From positions 372,001 through 436,000 of the forward strand of contig NZ_JAUCYU010000003.1 in NCBI RefSeq assembly GCF_030373445.1: a stretch of 64,000 bases of DNA, given 5' to 3'. Under the pieces are notes generated by a model that made no database searches, was not told the DNA's origin, and saw nothing but the letters and a program-made list of their open reading frames with translations. The position numbers were made by a program, and so were the translations under genes. How positions within the stretch are numbered: the first letter of the stretch is position 1; each line of letters opens with the position of its first letter. The DNA comes from Roseovarius sp. GTDB lineage: Bacteria > Pseudomonadota > Alphaproteobacteria > Rhodobacterales > Rhodobacteraceae. Below are positions 1,738 through 8,954 of the stretch, one piece after another.

Positions 1738-2253
1738 TCAGGCCTCCTCGCCTTCACGTGCATGCAGGTATCCGACGATTCCGCCGGCCTCCAGCATTTG
1801 CTTGTCGCTCTCGCTGAGCGGTTCGATGGGCAGTTCCGTCCCCGCCGTCAGGTTTCGCAGAACACCCGCGGCCCAATCGACCTCGATCTCGTCCCAGCGG
1901 CTGACCGCGCCGATGATGCCGGGGCAGATCACCTGCGGAAAGCCCATCGCGATCTCGCCGCGCCAGTAGCCGGGCGAGAAGCTTTCGCCGATCACGCCGC
2001 CGATGCCCAGCTTGCGCATGCCGATCATCGGCGGGTAATGCGGGTGGCCGTAGCCGAAATTGTGGTTGCCCACGAGCAGGTCGCCCGGCTGCACCTTTTC
2101 CGCAAAGTCGGGGTCGTCGGCGGCCATGCACAGCTTGGCCAGCTCGTCGGGGTCCTTGATCTTGATGTTCTTCACGCCGACGATCTGGTCGACGTCGAAA
2201 TCCTCGTCCTCGAAGATCCAGGCCACGCGCCCCCTGAGGTTGGCCAGCGTCAT
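1738..2253 (-). CDS. Aconitase/isopropylmalate-isomerase small-subunit-like hydratase (LeuD/DmdB-like)
   Basis: MTLANLRGRVAWIFEDEDFDVDQIVGVKNI...GNHNFGYGHPHYPPM...GVIGESFSPGYWRGEIAMGFP; overlaps the large subunit by 4 bp. Confidence 0.85.
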   Translation of the reverse strand: MTLANLRGRVAWIFEDEDFDVDQIVGVKNIKIKDPDELAKLCMAADDPDFAEKVQPGDLLVGNHNFGYGHPHYPPMIGMRKLGIGGVIGESFSPGYWRGEIAMGFPQVICPGIIGAVSRWDEIEVDWAAGVLRNLTAGTELPIEPLSESDKQMLEAGGIVGYLHAREGEEA

Positions 2254-3533
2254 GACGGCACCTTTTCCTTGGCCGCGGCCAGGTAGGGGCGCGGATCGGC
2301 GATCTTGCCCTCGATGGCAGAGGCCGCGACGGCCGCCGCGTTGACGATGTAGATGTCGCTGTCGGGCGACCCCATCCGCCCGCGCACGTTGAGCGTGCCG
2401 GTCGAAACCGCCTTCTGCCCCTCGCGCATCGCGCCCATGCGGCCGAAGCAGTAATCGCAGGAGGACGAGCTGATGAAGGCGCCCGCGTTGATCAGGCGGT
2501 TGAGGATCCCTTTCGAGGCCGCCTCCTCCATGATCTCCTGGCTGGTCGGGATCACGTAAAGCTGGAACCCGTCCTTGATCCGGCGGCCTTCCAGCACGTC
2601 GGCGGCCAGTGCCAGGTCCTCGACGCGACCGGAGGCGCAGGAACCGAGATAGCCCACCTGCACCTCGGTGCCCGCCACCTCGCTCAGGTCGCGGGTGTTG
2701 GCCGGGCTGGGCGGGATCACGGCGACGGGTTCGAGGTTGGTGATGTCGATCTCGTGCCGCGCGTGGTAGTTTGCGTCGGGGTCCGAGAAGAGCGGTTCGA
2801 TATCCAGCTTCTGGCGCTCGCGCATGTAGGCCAGCGCCTTCTCGTCGGGGTTGTTGATGGCCGTGATGGCGCCGGTGAACATGGCCAGGCAGTTGATCGT
2901 CTGCCGCGCCTCCAGCGACATCGCCTCGATCGCCGGGCCGCCGATCTCCATCACCATGCCGCGACAGGCGCGGGGCCCGAGCTCGCGCACGATATGGTGG
3001 AACACGTCGCGCGAGGTCACGCCCATCTGCAATTCGCCGGTGATGTCGATTCGCACCGTCTCGGGCACCTGGAACTTGATCCGCTCCTTCACGAACGCCT
3101 CGAGCAGGTGGCGCCGCACGCCGATGGCCAGCGTGCCGAAGGTGCCCAGCTGCGAGATATGCCCGTCGAAATGCACCACGAAAGCGCCGGGCGTGGCATA
3201 GCCCAGCTCGGCCGCGACCTGGTGGCCGATGCCCTTGCGCTCGTAGACGGGCACGTTGTTCTTCTTGCCCCAGCTGCGGGTGCCTTCGTGCAGGTCCTCT
3301 TCCGCCGCGGTGGCGGTGGGCACCATGTGGTCGATGAACAGCGCGTAGCGGTCGGGCTCGGCCACCTTCTCGATGCCGAACTCCTCTTCCATCTGGCGGA
3401 AGATCACGTCGGTGTAGCCCGGGAAATCGTAGGCGATGACGAAATCCGGCTTGGCGAGCAATTCGTCGCCGGCCCGCGCTTCGGTTTTGCCCGACACGCG
3501 GGCGAGAATCTTTTCGGCTATGGTGAAGCCCAT
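2250..3533 (-). CDS. Aconitase/isopropylmalate-isomerase large-subunit-like hydratase (LeuC/DmdA-like)
   Basis: MGFTIAEKILARVSGKTEARAGDELLAKPDFVIAYDFPGY...; contains GSCASGRVEDLALAADVL and SSSCDYCFGRMGAM, LeuC-type FeS/active-site motifs. Confidence 0.85.
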   Translation of the reverse strand: MGFTIAEKILARVSGKTEARAGDELLAKPDFVIAYDFPGYTDVIFRQMEEEFGIEKVAEPDRYALFIDHMVPTATAAEEDLHEGTRSWGKKNNVPVYERKGIGHQVAAELGYATPGAFVVHFDGHISQLGTFGTLAIGVRRHLLEAFVKERIKFQVPETVRIDITGELQMGVTSRDVFHHIVRELGPRACRGMVMEIGGPAIEAMSLEARQTINCLAMFTGAITAINNPDEKALAYMRERQKLDIEPLFSDPDANYHARHEIDITNLEPVAVIPPSPANTRDLSEVAGTEVQVGYLGSCASGRVEDLALAADVLEGRRIKDGFQLYVIPTSQEIMEEAASKGILNRLINAGAFISSSSCDYCFGRMGAMREGQKAVSTGTLNVRGRMGSPDSDIYIVNAAAVAASAIEGKIADPRPYLAAAKEKVPS

Positions 3534-3606
3534 GCTCCGACCTCCCTTCGGATTGGCTGAGCGCAATCGTGAGCCTTCTTGGCCCACAAGTCAACTAACA
3601 ACACAA

Positions 3607-3623
3607 ATTTCATCTGGTGAAAT
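3607..3623. promoter_or_regulatory. Candidate IclR operator, site 1 (ATTTCATCTGGTGAAAT)
   Basis: Dyad ATTTCA-N5-TGAAAT upstream of the hydratase operon; near-identical to the site at 4430-4446. Confidence 0.65.
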
Positions 3624-3624
3624 G

Positions 3625-4419
3625 CTAGATGGCCAGGCCCCGCACCGCGTTGCGCATGTCGGTGACAGCGGTCTGCATTTTCTCCAGGTGGACGGCCTGC
3701 GCCGCCCCGACATAGTTCGGCGTCAGCCCGCCGGACGAGATCGCGCCAAGCAGCCGGCCGTCGTCATCCAGCAGCGGCACCGCCATGGCCGAGATCCCCT
3801 CGACGATCTCGTCATGCTTGACGATGAACCCCTTTTCGCGGGCGCGGGCGATCTCGGCGCGCAGCGTCTTTTCCTCTCCGGCCTCGAGCTTGAGCGGGCC
3901 GGACAGGATTCGCTCCTGCTCCTCTTCTGACATGTGTGCAAGCAGCACGCGCGGCCCGGTGCCCCGGTCGAACGAGCGGATTTCCCCCACGGCCCACCAG
4001 CGCACCTCGATCGCCTGCCCGCCGTTGTGACAGGCCTGGCAGAGCGCGACGTCGCCCTCGACCGTCGACAGGTAGATCGTGGTTTGCGTGTCTTTCGCCA
4101 GCTGAAGCAGCCGGTCATCCACTAGGTTGATCAAGGTCAGTGATTCGGGCACCGCCCGGGCCAGTTCCAGAAGCCCCGCCGACGCGCTGTAGAGCCCGGA
4201 CGCAGGATCCTGGAACACCAGCCCCTCGTCCCTCAGCGTCACGAGAATGCGGCGGGTCGTGCCCGCGTCGAGCCCCGTCTCGCGCACGATTTCATTGAGC
4301 GCCCGGTGGGGATGCGCCCGCGAGAACGCCCTCAGGATCGCAACCGCGCGAGAGATGGATCTCACCCGCGGAAGGGTTGCGCCATGCTGCCCTCGCAACT
4401 TTACCGCGTCATTTGCCAT
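3625..4419 (-). CDS. IclR family transcriptional regulator
   Basis: MANDAVKLRGQHGATLPRVRSISRAVAILRAFSRAHPHRALNEIVRETGLDAGTTRRILVTLRDEGLV (IclR wHTH) plus IclR ligand domain. Confidence 0.92.
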   Translation of the reverse strand: MANDAVKLRGQHGATLPRVRSISRAVAILRAFSRAHPHRALNEIVRETGLDAGTTRRILVTLRDEGLVFQDPASGLYSASAGLLELARAVPESLTLINLVDDRLLQLAKDTQTTIYLSTVEGDVALCQACHNGGQAIEVRWWAVGEIRSFDRGTGPRVLLAHMSEEEQERILSGPLKLEAGEEKTLRAEIARAREKGFIVKHDEIVEGISAMAVPLLDDDGRLLGAISSGGLTPNYVGAAQAVHLEKMQTAVTDMRNAVRGLAI

Positions 4420-4429
4420 TTTGCTCCCC

Positions 4430-4446
4430 TTTTCACCTGATGAAAT
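4430..4446. promoter_or_regulatory. Candidate IclR operator, site 2 (TTTTCACCTGATGAAAT)
   Basis: Reverse complement ATTTCATCAGGTGAAAA matches site 1 at 15/17; located in the iclR/dctP divergent intergenic region. Confidence 0.65.
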
Positions 4447-4531
4447 ATAAATTGACTGTTGACACAACGCAATCCTCTCGTGCGATATTCGGCACGACTG
4501 GCCGCATCGGCCTGAACAGGGAGGAATATCC

Positions 4532-5608
4532 ATGAAACACATGATCAGGGGGCTTGTCGCCCCCGCACTCGTATCGGCAGGGCTCGTCACCGCGGCCCTG
4601 ACCACGGCCGCAGAGGCGCAGACCCGCGAATTGCGATTCGCGGAATTCGGCCCGAATGCCGGCGCCCGGGCGGGCGGCCTCGTCTGGCTCGACGAGGAAC
4701 TGCGCAAGCGCACCGATGGCGAGCTTGGCCTCGACATCATCTGGGGCGGCGCCCTTGTCGGCGCGTCCGGCGCGGCACAGGCCATCTCCGACGGCGTGGC
4801 CGACATGGGCTCGATCGTTCCGGTCTACGCCCCGGGCGAGCTTGTGGTCTACGAGGTCGTCGACACCGGCGAGATCGCCGACGAGTATGCAGGGATGATG
4901 GCCGCCTACGAGCTGATGACGACGCATCCCGACGCGCTGAAGGAAGCCGAGGATTTCAACGTCAAGTACTTCGGCAACTACACCACCGGCCCGACCCAGC
5001 TTCTGACGCGTGACAAGGCGGTCCGCAGCCTCGAGGATCTCGAGGGCCTCACGATCCGCACCACCGGCGCCCACGTGCCGGCGCTCGAAGCCTATGGCGC
5101 GGCCACCGTGTCGATGTCGCAGCCCAAGGTCTACGAGGCGCTGTCGAACGGCTCGGTCGACGGCTCGACCACCTATTACTACGTGGTCAACGGCTACAAG
5201 CAGTACGAGGTCGCCGACTACATGACCGAAACCGGGCTCGGCCAAACGCTGGGCTTCGGGATCATCATGAACAAGCAGACCTTCGAAAGCCTGTCGCCCG
5301 AGCACCAGGAAATCGTCGAGGAGCTTGGCCGCGACTTCACGCTGGAGATGGCGGAAATCATGGCCAACTCGCGCATCGAAACCAAGGCCAAGCTAGCCGA
5401 GGGCATCGACGGCAAGAAGGTCGAGATGATCGACGCCCCGGAAGAGATGCGCCAGGCGCTGATCGAGGAAGCCCTGAAGGACAACGTCAACTGGGTCGAG
5501 AAGGCGAACGCCAAGGGGCTCGAGGGCGAGACGATCTCGCAGGACTGGCTCGCGCTGGCCGAGAAGTACCGCAAGGAAGTCGAAGAAAACGGCTATCCCT
5601 GGGACTGA
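4532..5608 (+). CDS. TRAP transporter substrate-binding protein (DctP family)
   Basis: Signal peptide; LRFAEFGPNAGARAGGLVWLDEELRKRTDGELGLDIIWGGALVGASGAAQAISDGVADMGS; LEDLEGLTIRTTG. Confidence 0.92.
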   Translation: MKHMIRGLVAPALVSAGLVTAALTTAAEAQTRELRFAEFGPNAGARAGGLVWLDEELRKRTDGELGLDIIWGGALVGASGAAQAISDGVADMGSIVPVYAPGELVVYEVVDTGEIADEYAGMMAAYELMTTHPDALKEAEDFNVKYFGNYTTGPTQLLTRDKAVRSLEDLEGLTIRTTGAHVPALEAYGAATVSMSQPKVYEALSNGSVDGSTTYYYVVNGYKQYEVADYMTETGLGQTLGFGIIMNKQTFESLSPEHQEIVEELGRDFTLEMAEIMANSRIETKAKLAEGIDGKKVEMIDAPEEMRQALIEEALKDNVNWVEKANAKGLEGETISQDWLALAEKYRKEVEENGYPWD

Positions 5609-5711: not shown

Positions 5712-6254
5712 ATGACTTCCGTAGGCACGAGCGTCCGCAAGGCCCAGTCGTTGCTAGAAACCCTTGCCATGATCCTTGCGGGGATCGTCCTGCTGACGAT
5801 GGGCCTGATCATCGTCGCCTCGATCCTTGGCAAGCTCCTGTTCCTCAGGCCCATTCCCGACGACCTGCTGATGGTGGGTCTTCTGAACGTGGCGGTGATC
5901 GTCCTGCCGCTGGCCTACGTGGAACGGATGCGCGGCCATATCACCGTGACCGTCACCACCGATTGGCTGGGCACGCGCGCACTGGGGGCGCTGCGGGTGT
6001 TCGGCGCGCTGGCAATGGCGGTGTTCTTCGGCGGAATCGGCATCATGGTGGCCGGGCGCATGCCGAGCGAGATTGCCAAGGGCGCCTATTACGACGGTGT
6101 GCTGCAAGTGCCGACATGGCCGATGAAAGCGGTGTTCGGCGCCGCCATCCTGCTGTTCGTCGCCCGCCTTGTCCTGAGCATGATCGACGGCGTCCATACC
6201 ATCGTCACCGGTCGGGATGACGCCCCCACCGAAACCACCAACGAAGAGGTCTGA
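5712..6254 (+). CDS. TRAP transporter small permease (DctQ)
   Basis: 180 aa, four hydrophobic segments, between dctP and dctM. Confidence 0.88.
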   Translation: MTSVGTSVRKAQSLLETLAMILAGIVLLTMGLIIVASILGKLLFLRPIPDDLLMVGLLNVAVIVLPLAYVERMRGHITVTVTTDWLGTRALGALRVFGALAMAVFFGGIGIMVAGRMPSEIAKGAYYDGVLQVPTWPMKAVFGAAILLFVARLVLSMIDGVHTIVTGRDDAPTETTNEEV

Positions 6255-6257
6255 CCC

Positions 6258-7601
6258 ATGGATCCGCTTATGGTCGGCCTTGTCGCGCTTGGCATCACCA
6301 TCCTGCTTCTGGCCATCCGCGTGCCCATCGCGGCCGCGCTCGGCATTTCCGCCTCGGTCGGCGTGTTCATCATCTTCTCGTGGCGCCCCGGGGCCGAGTT
6401 CATGCCGGAATACGCCTGGCGCCCCACCCTGTCGCTGATCGCGAACGGGCCCTACGACTTCCTCAAGAGCTACAGCCTTGCCACCGTGCCGCTATTCGTG
6501 CTGATGGGGCACCTGGCCTACGAGGCCGGGTTCACCACGGATGTCTACCGCGCCGCACGCCTTTGGCTCGCGAAGCTGCCGGGCGGCGTGGCGATGGCCT
6601 CGGTCGTCGGTTGCGGCGGGTTCTCGGCGATCACCGGCTCGTCGGTGGCCTGCGCGGCGGCGATGGGGCGCATCGCGATCCCGGAAATGCTGAAATTCGG
6701 CTACTCCAAGCCGCTCGCCACCGGGTCGGTCGCCATCGGCGGCACGCTGGGCTCGCTGATCCCGCCCTCGATCCTGTTCATCCTTTACGGCGTCTTCGCC
6801 GAGCAATCCATCGCCCGCCTGTTCATGGCGGCGATCGTGCCCGGCCTCCTGTCGCTGCTGGCCTACCTGATGGTGATCTTCCTGTGGGCCAAGCTCAAAC
6901 CCTCCGCCGCGCCGCGCCCCGAAGAAACCATCTCGGCCCGCGACCGCTGGCAGAGCCTCGGGAACTGCTGGTCCATCGTGGCGCTGTTCGTCGTGGTGAT
7001 CGGCGGCATCTACGCCGGTTTCTTCACCCCGTCCGAAGCCGCCGGCGTCGGCGCCATCTCGGCGCTGGTCCTCGGCCTCGTCCTCGGCCGGCTGAACTTC
7101 AAACGCATCGTCTCGGCCCTGCGGGAAAGCGTGTTCCAGTCATCGATGATCTTCGCCATCGCCGTGGCGGGCAAGATCTACGTCAGCTTCATCGCCCTCA
7201 CCGGCCTCTCGGGCGCCATCGGCGACTGGATCGCCGCGTCGGAGGTGTCGATGGTGGCGGTGCTGCTGCTGATCGTGCTGTTCTACCTCGTGCTGGGTAT
7301 GTTCCTCGACCCGATCGGGATCATCCTGCTGACCCTGCCGCTCACCATTCCGATCGTCAGCGGCTACGACCTGTCGCTGATCTGGTTCGGCGTGCTGGTG
7401 ATCAAGCTGCTGGAAATCGGGCTGGTGACGCCACCCATCGGGCTGAACGTCTTCGTGATCAAGTCGATCCTGGGCGACAAGGTGCGGCTGGAATCGATCT
7501 TCGCGGGGATTTCGCTGTTCCTGATCGCCGAAGTCGTCGTGCTGGCGCTGATTGCCGCGATACCGGCGATATCGCTATGGCTGCCCTCGGTGCTCATGTA
7601 A
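6258..7601 (+). CDS. TRAP transporter large permease (DctM)
   Basis: 447 aa polytopic; GCGGFSAITGSSVACAAAMGRIAIPEMLKFGYSKPLATGSVAIGGTLGSLIPPSI. Confidence 0.93.
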   Translation: MDPLMVGLVALGITILLLAIRVPIAAALGISASVGVFIIFSWRPGAEFMPEYAWRPTLSLIANGPYDFLKSYSLATVPLFVLMGHLAYEAGFTTDVYRAARLWLAKLPGGVAMASVVGCGGFSAITGSSVACAAAMGRIAIPEMLKFGYSKPLATGSVAIGGTLGSLIPPSILFILYGVFAEQSIARLFMAAIVPGLLSLLAYLMVIFLWAKLKPSAAPRPEETISARDRWQSLGNCWSIVALFVVVIGGIYAGFFTPSEAAGVGAISALVLGLVLGRLNFKRIVSALRESVFQSSMIFAIAVAGKIYVSFIALTGLSGAIGDWIAASEVSMVAVLLLIVLFYLVLGMFLDPIGIILLTLPLTIPIVSGYDLSLIWFGVLVIKLLEIGLVTPPIGLNVFVIKSILGDKVRLESIFAGISLFLIAEVVVLALIAAIPAISLWLPSVLM

Positions 7602-7643: not shown

Positions 7644-8954
7644 TCACTGGTCGCTGCCGGATTTGAGCAGCTCCTTCGCGCGGCCCACGGTCACGTCGCC
7701 CAGCGCCGCAAGCTCGCCCGCCACCCGGTCAACCTCCATTCCGGTCGCCCCGGCAAGGATCGCGATGTTGCGCGCGTGGAGCGTCATGTGCCCCTTCTGG
7801 ATCCCCTCGGTCGCCAGCGCCCGCAGCGCGGCCATGTTCTGCGCCAGCCCGACTGCCGCCGTGACCTCTGCCAGCTCGCCGGCCGAGCCAACATCCATCA
7901 GCTTGATCGCGGCCTGCGCCGAGGGGTGCGTCTTGGTCGCGCCGCCAACCAGCCCGAGCGCAAGTGGAAGCTCGATCGAGCCGACCAGCTTGCCGGAGGT
8001 CGCAACCTCCCACCGCGTCAGCGAGGAATACCGCCCCGAGCGCGCGGCATAGCTGTGGGCGCCGGCCTCGATCGCCCGCCAGTCGTTGCCGGTGGCCACG
8101 ACGACCGGGTCGATACCGTTCATGATGCCCTTGTTGTGGGTCGCCGCGCGGTACGGGTCGATGATAGCCAGCGCACAGGCCTCCTCGATGCCGCGCGCCA
8201 CATCGGTGCCCTTCAGCGTCGCCGTATCCAGCACCGCCGGGTCCAGTTCGACCTTGGCCCGCACCAGCCGGAGGTCGGCAAGGTTGGACAGGATCCGAAG
8301 TCGCACCGTGCCCCCCGCAATCGCCTCGACATCGGGCGCCAGCGCCTCGGCCATGGTGTTGACCGTGTTGGCCCCCATGGCGTCGCGCACGTCGACGAGG
8401 ATATGCATGACGACCATCGGCCCGACCGGCGTCGACTCGAAGACATGCACTTCCACATCCCGGCATCCGCCGCCAAGCTCGACCAGCACGGGGTCGCGGG
8501 TGTTGGCCTTGTCGATCAGCCGCTGCTTCTCCTCGAGAAGCCGCTGGCGTGCGCCGAACGGGTCGGAGATCCGCAAGACCTGGATCTGCGCGCGCATGAT
8601 CGGCCGGTCCGACGCGGCGGTAAACCCGCCCTGCCCCCGCGCGATCTTGGCCATGTAGGACGCCGCCGCGACGACCGAAGGCTCTTCGACGGCCATGGGA
8701 ACGAGGTAATCCTTGCCGTTGACGACGAAATTCGTCGCCACCCCCATGGGCAACTCGAACTTGCCGACGACATTCTCGATCATCCCGTTGGCAAGTTGGA
8801 TCGGCAGGATGTCGGCGCCCGACAATATGCGCTCATCCTCCTGGTTGAGACCGGTGGCCCGGCAAATCGCGCTCCGGCGTTCTGCGGGTTCCATGTTGCG
8901 CATTCCGTCGACGCGGGAACGCCCCTTGGCGGTGCTGGCGGGTTCGTCCATCAA
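7644..8954 (-). CDS. mvaA: Hydroxymethylglutaryl-CoA reductase, class II (degradative type)
   Basis: [58 protein letters not shown]; class II length (436 aa). Confidence 0.9.

Follow-up and report, generated by a model that had tools for sequence, protein, structure and literature searches.

A conserved operator pair flanking iclR connects a TRAP transporter with a hydro-lyase/lyase operon in a predicted local regulon of Roseovarius sp.

Genes at the locus

The window analysed was the whole stretch of 64,000 nucleotides from Roseovarius sp.; coordinates are window positions unless preceded by a locus number. An IclR-family regulator is encoded by iclR (3625–4419, minus strand), whose product scored 48.5 bits with HTH_IclR (cut-off 22) and 49.4 bits with IclR_C (cut-off 24). 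Further along the minus strand are a dmdA-like gene for the large subunit of an aconitase/isopropylmalate-isomerase-type hydro-lyase (2250–3533), a dmdB-like gene for the small subunit, of the LeuD/DmdB family (1738–2256), a gene for an ICL/PEP-mutase-superfamily lyase with a KRC catalytic-type cysteine (841–1734), and the gene for U541, a 541-residue protein whose N-terminal part is encoded at 1–824. The U541 gene runs past the left end of the window and continues as L012:9199-10824; the C-terminus of the protein is Cys/His-rich. On the plus strand, dctP (solute-binding protein, 4532–5608), dctQ (small permease, 5712–6254) and dctM (large permease, 6258–7601) are adjacent. Their products scored above the cut-offs of PF03480, PF04290 and PF06808, identifying a TRAP transporter. 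Solved relatives among TRAP binding proteins were too distant from DctP to indicate its substrate.

The dmdA-like product scored 217.8 bits with PF00330 (cut-off 28.7) and was thereby assigned to the aconitase-superfamily hydro-lyases; its score with each of its best models was under the respective cut-off. The dmdB-like product scored 104.9 bits with TIGR02087 (LeuD/DmdB), just under the cut-off of 108.95, and the lyase scored 186.2 bits with TIGR02317 (PrpB, 2-methylisocitrate lyase), far under the cut-off of 354.4. No substrate is named for the hydro-lyase or the lyase, because none of the curated equivalog cut-offs was reached. Isopropylmalate/citramalate isomerase and homoaconitase are relatives of the hydro-lyase; those of the lyase, which retains the KRC motif, are methylisocitrate and dimethylmalate lyases. 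The superfamily fold and the KRC cysteine motif are common to the lyase and to methylisocitrate lyase (PrpB) and its relatives. The residues that follow KRC are PA, AA or similar, whereas the PDB relative 3eoo has GH.

The nicotinate fermentation of Eubacterium barkeri comprises 2,3-dimethylmaleate hydratase (DmdAB) and 2,3-dimethylmalate lyase. The present locus is similar in that a two-subunit aconitase-type hydro-lyase is encoded beside an ICL/PEP-mutase-superfamily lyase. To our knowledge, a TRAP transporter, an IclR regulator and U541 are no part of the E. barkeri pathway. No described system with these parts was found in the open-access literature. Acting in turn, the hydro-lyase would add water to an unsaturated di- or tricarboxylate and the lyase would split the product.

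A degradative-type HMG-CoA reductase gene (7644–8954; product above the TIGR00532 cut-off) adjoins dctPQM on the opposite strand. It is followed by a MocR-like gene, a CoA-transferase gene and an enoyl-CoA hydratase-like gene, outside the conserved cassette. To the left of U541, the minus strand of L012:576-8983 carries a second TRAP set and genes for an NtaA/DmoA-type flavin monooxygenase, a flavin reductase, a GMC oxidoreductase and an amidohydrolase; a second flavin-reductase ORF lies on the plus strand. The L012:576-8983 genes were not seen as recurrent neighbours of other cassettes.

Operator pair flanking iclR

Operator 1 (ATTTCATCTGGTGAAAT) occupies 3607–3623, in the gap that separates the end of iclR (stop codon, 3625) from the start of the hydratase (dmdA-like) gene (3533). 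Operator 2 (ATTTCATCAGGTGAAAA, given on the opposite strand) occupies 4430–4446, where iclR and dctP diverge, and is separated by 10 nt from the start codon of iclR (4419, other strand). The two sites, compared in opposite orientations, are identical at 15 of 17 positions. Each is itself near-palindromic, and the inner palindrome TTTCA-N5-TGAAA is common to both. The operator 1 core, TTTCACCAGATGAAA (3608–3622, minus strand), reads toward dmdA, and the operator 2 core, TTTCACCTGATGAAA (4431–4445, plus strand), reads toward dctP. In a first-order Markov simulation, a comparable palindrome arose by chance with a probability of approximately 3e-4 in one gap and 6e-4 in the other.

An earlier sequence-only reading of this DNA had reported the pair, and its coordinates, 15/17 match and orientation were all correct. 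The same reading had placed the sites at the hydratase promoter and at the iclR/dctP divergent promoter. That placement stands, and operator 1 serves the dmdA promoter; one correction is required, as iclR and the hydratase gene are co-directional, both being on the minus strand.

Conservation of the sites and gene order

In 397 genomes of the family, an iclR orthologue (E <= 1e-40) was present in only six and a dmdA orthologue (E <= 1e-130) in seven, the seventh being a truncated match in an incomplete genome. Genome contigs were searched with the IclR alignment, and 19 loci were obtained, some from genomes also in the 397-genome set. These loci were mostly from Rhodobacterales, with some from other Alphaproteobacteria, at an IclR identity of 42–71%. 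Aestuariivita boseongensis is one cultured carrier. The recognition-helix stretch LD[AS]GT-x-RR was present in all IclR homologues. All 19 loci have an exact TTTCA-N5-TGAAA between iclR and dctP, and 18 of them also have one between iclR and dmdA. In the remaining locus (L034), the iclR/dmdA gap contains AATCATCAGGTGAAA, which has two mismatches in one arm and unchanged downstream spacing.

The gene order dctPQM/iclR/dmdA/dmdB/lyase was kept wherever the contig was long enough. The U541 gene was next in order in most close relatives and nearby in others. Beyond the eight cassette genes, no family recurred as a neighbour in more than three loci; the one found in three was ABC-transporter ATPase-like.

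Promoter architecture

The hexamer TTGAC[AT] lies exactly 13 nt past the operator, in the direction of dctP or dmdA, in 39 of 39 promoters with an exact site. These 39 sites were picked for exact arms and not for TTGAC or its distance. A TT at site positions 22–23 and a purine at position 24 (the TTR element) were equally invariant (39/39). TTR(Y) begins 6 nt after TGAAA and 21 nt from box 1 in every case, and matches part of a half-site. In the dmdA promoter (minus strand), the element is TTG (3599–3601), between operator 1 and the −35-like hexamer TTGACT (3589–3594), and is a candidate degenerate third half-site. In the dctP promoter (plus strand), it is again TTG (4452–4454), between operator 2 and the −35-like hexamer TTGACA (4459–4464). 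The dctP promoter also contains an extended −10-like GATATT (4484–4489, plus strand) with TG at 4481–4482 and a 19-bp spacer. TG-N-GATANT at a spacer of 19 was present in 12 of 20 dctP promoters; −10 boxes were poorly conserved in dmdA promoters. No consensus sigma-70 promoter with a 16–18 bp spacer was present in the region. If TTGAC is the −35 box, as was assumed, the operator centre is at approximately −57 in both target promoters.

The arms and TTGAC were 100% identical, and mean pairwise identity at the spacer positions was 55% for dctP and 49% for dmdA promoters. The dctP and dmdA promoters of the same genome agreed at 50% of spacer positions. Spacing is thus kept between promoters that are otherwise little alike, which indicates that the operator and the −35 box are a functional unit. 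The fixed 13-nt distance from operator to TTGAC and the TTR between them are new here. The earlier reading had overlooked this spacing, as well as the U541 gene downstream and the absence of additional regulon members.

Comparison with known IclR operators

Suvorova and Gelfand 2021 (PMC8222616) give GKTYCRYW3-4RYGRAMC as the consensus of IclR-family group 1, and WTTYCRYW3RYGRAAW as that of the WTT-11-AAW subgroup. The operator arms, ATTTCAY/RTGAAAT, fit the subgroup, with the central W3 matched in part only. According to the same paper, an IclR-family regulator typically acts on its own gene and on one or two operons next to it, and DctPQM is listed among the transporter sets co-occurring in IclR regulogs; dctPQM is present here too. 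A regulog with a hydratase-lyase set of this kind is absent from the main text of that paper, in which no description was found of the 13-nt distance to TTGAC or of the TTR element.

The Acinetobacter IclR-family activators PcaU and PobR are described in PMC8222616 as using a three-box operator, comprising a palindrome and an external direct half-site. The TTRY here begins where the third box of those operators would be expected but is degenerate. The TTTCA arms are also unlike the GTTCG/GTCCG of PcaU/PobR operators. The best NCBIfam match of the IclR protein was the PcaR/PcaU/PobR subfamily model TIGR02431, with 94.1 bits, far below the cut-off of 284.75. Published amino-acid/nucleotide correlations for the IclR family were ambiguous here (A at the Arg47-equivalent, R at the Gln51-equivalent) and were not used.

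Predicted activation of both operons

We infer that the binder of the two sites is the IclR protein encoded between its targets. It would bind TTTCA-N5-TGAAA and a weak third half-site at both promoters. From approximately −57, at the fixed 13 nt from the −35 box, it would activate the divergent dctPQM and dmdA-dmdB-lyase-U541 operons, triggered by its binding of the imported substrate or of an intermediate. Import and the hydration-cleavage of an organic acid would be switched on together. Binding at operator 2 would also repress iclR, whose start codon is 10 nt away. An operator upstream of RNA polymerase, combined with the lack of a consensus sigma-70 promoter, suits an activator. A dedicated local IclR-type regulator that activates both operons from approximately −57 and represses its own gene is the probable explanation of the locus.

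IclR could instead be a repressor of the dctPQM and dmdA operons, sitting ligand-free at both sites and released by substrate, perhaps with looping over iclR (approximately 0.8 kb). Repression is the commoner mode of IclR-family catabolic regulators (PMC13273656), a pair of sites flanking one gene suits looping, sites upstream of a promoter can repress too, and operator 2 is clearly able to block iclR. However, at both target promoters the sites are upstream of the −35/−10 region and not over it, and the spacing is invariant. A −35 box near consensus, combined with a −10 box that is either weak or 19 bp away, is also what an activator needs. Repression of the two operons is accordingly considered rather unlikely.

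U541 and the flow of substrate

U541 copies across cassettes were 78–96% identical to the L025 copy; at 80–92%, conservation of U541 exceeded that of the other proteins in the cassette. Searches of Pfam, NCBIfam and the PDB revealed no relative of U541. An AlphaFold2 model built from ten close homologues had a pLDDT of 42, too poor for use. Similarity of U541 to the Peptidase M29/NicX-like fold found no support: there was no Pfam match, and hhalign gave a probability of 0.1 against PF02073, both profiles being shallow.

In other alphaproteobacteria, a related dctPQM accompanies U541 at loci that lack dmdA/dmdB (L052, L054). U541 and dctPQM lie there beside an ORF that by eye resembles the enolase superfamily and a GntR-like regulator gene, an arrangement that is apparently an alternative cassette. 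Because U541 is conserved and is found elsewhere beside dctPQM without dmdAB, a connection between U541 and the imported compound is plausible.

The conserved linkage and the shared promoter architecture lead us to infer that the TRAP substrate would feed the hydratase-lyase pathway, as the earlier reading had proposed. The regulator could also be common to the two operons while substrate flow is separate, the importer bringing in, for example, an inducer or a co-substrate. The dctPQM sets of L052 and L054 indicate that the importer can serve other downstream enzymes. Against separate flow, complete loci keep the order dctPQM/iclR/dmdA/dmdB/lyase, as is usual for genes of a single uptake-and-breakdown route. 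Separate flow is improbable on this evidence and would in any case be compatible with IclR acting as the activator of both operons. As a tentative extension of the activator explanation, the cassette may represent an undescribed route in which a TRAP-imported organic (perhaps ring-containing) acid is acted on first by U541 and then hydrated and cleaved by the DmdAB-like enzyme and the lyase, under activation by IclR through the rigid promoter geometry.

Specificity of the site across genomes

The pattern proposed in the earlier reading, with up to three mismatches allowed, matched just operators 1 and 2 within the window, where 0.06 matches were expected. In the 4.8 Mb genome, exact TTTCAYCWGRTGAAA occurred at operators 1 and 2 only, which rules out random genome-wide abundance of the motif, the outcome that had been named as refuting a shared regulon. 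With one mismatch, TTTCAYCWGRTGAAA gave a single match in the same genome, within a 2-hydroxyacid-dehydrogenase-like ORF; with two mismatches, matches were in or over long ORFs. A scan for other regulon members had also been proposed. It was run on this genome with exact and looser patterns, and none turned up.

The looser pattern TTTCAN5TGAAA was exact at four places in the genome: the two operators, an intergenic match near a pcaH-like gene (L044) and a match within a phage-like ORF (L045). The intergenic match, TTTCATATTTTGAAA (L044:1501-1515), lies in the gap between protocatechuate-dioxygenase-like and 3-hydroxyacyl-CoA-dehydrogenase-like genes. Its core differs from those of the operators and the TTGAC module is missing; it is possibly a site of another regulator or a chance match.

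An exact search for the 33-bp module across the 20 carrier genomes matched only the two iclR-flanking promoters, apart from one apparent extra copy (G789), which precedes another dmdA-dmdB-lyase set at the end of a contig. A reversed control pattern gave 0 matches in these genomes. Across 385 genomes of the class, a stricter form of the module was found only in the own genome, in three genomes of one other genus and in G680. The G680 match (L110) led to one more dctPQ-iclR-dmdA locus, whose IclR has 41% identity. This cassette was absent from the loci used to build the pattern, so the pattern predicted it anew. The conserved sites and gene order, together with the genome-wide specificity, strongly support the earlier proposal that the TRAP transporter and the hydratase-lyase operon belong to a single local IclR-type regulon.

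In the three genomes of the other genus (L107, L108 and L109), the module TTTCATTGAATGAAATTCATTTTATAAATTGAC or a near copy has a MarR-type gene on one side and a peptide-binding ABC solute-binding gene on the other, and no IclR gene was present within the 3 kb fetched. The sequence is therefore no proof of an IclR protein, and another transcription factor could bind the sites at the present locus, iclR being merely a neighbour under its control. The confinement of the module to the flanks of iclR across the 20 carrier genomes argues against this, as do the fit of the sites to the IclR consensus of PMC8222616 and the invariance of the recognition helix together with the arms. A broader regulator would also be expected to have additional sites. 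Control by a different factor is thus very unlikely. Chance similarity of two AT-rich palindromes might have been considered when just two sites had been seen, and is refuted by their uniqueness in the whole genome and their conservation in 19 other genomes.

Significance of the cassette

The arrangement is kept in approximately 20 bacterial genomes and represents local control of a textbook type, with no new principle. For a so far uncharacterised cassette of uptake and breakdown genes, common to scattered Rhodobacterales and other alphaproteobacteria, it yields a predicted operator, a predicted regulator and a full list of targets. The rigid spacing between operator and −35 box leads to a clear prediction, that the regulator is an activator and not a repressor. 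As sensing would be regulator-based, reporter screening of compounds could reveal the substrate. The sharper mechanistic prediction and the unexplained, conserved U541 are the most interesting parts; U541, a conserved family without annotation, is now tied to a defined metabolic context.
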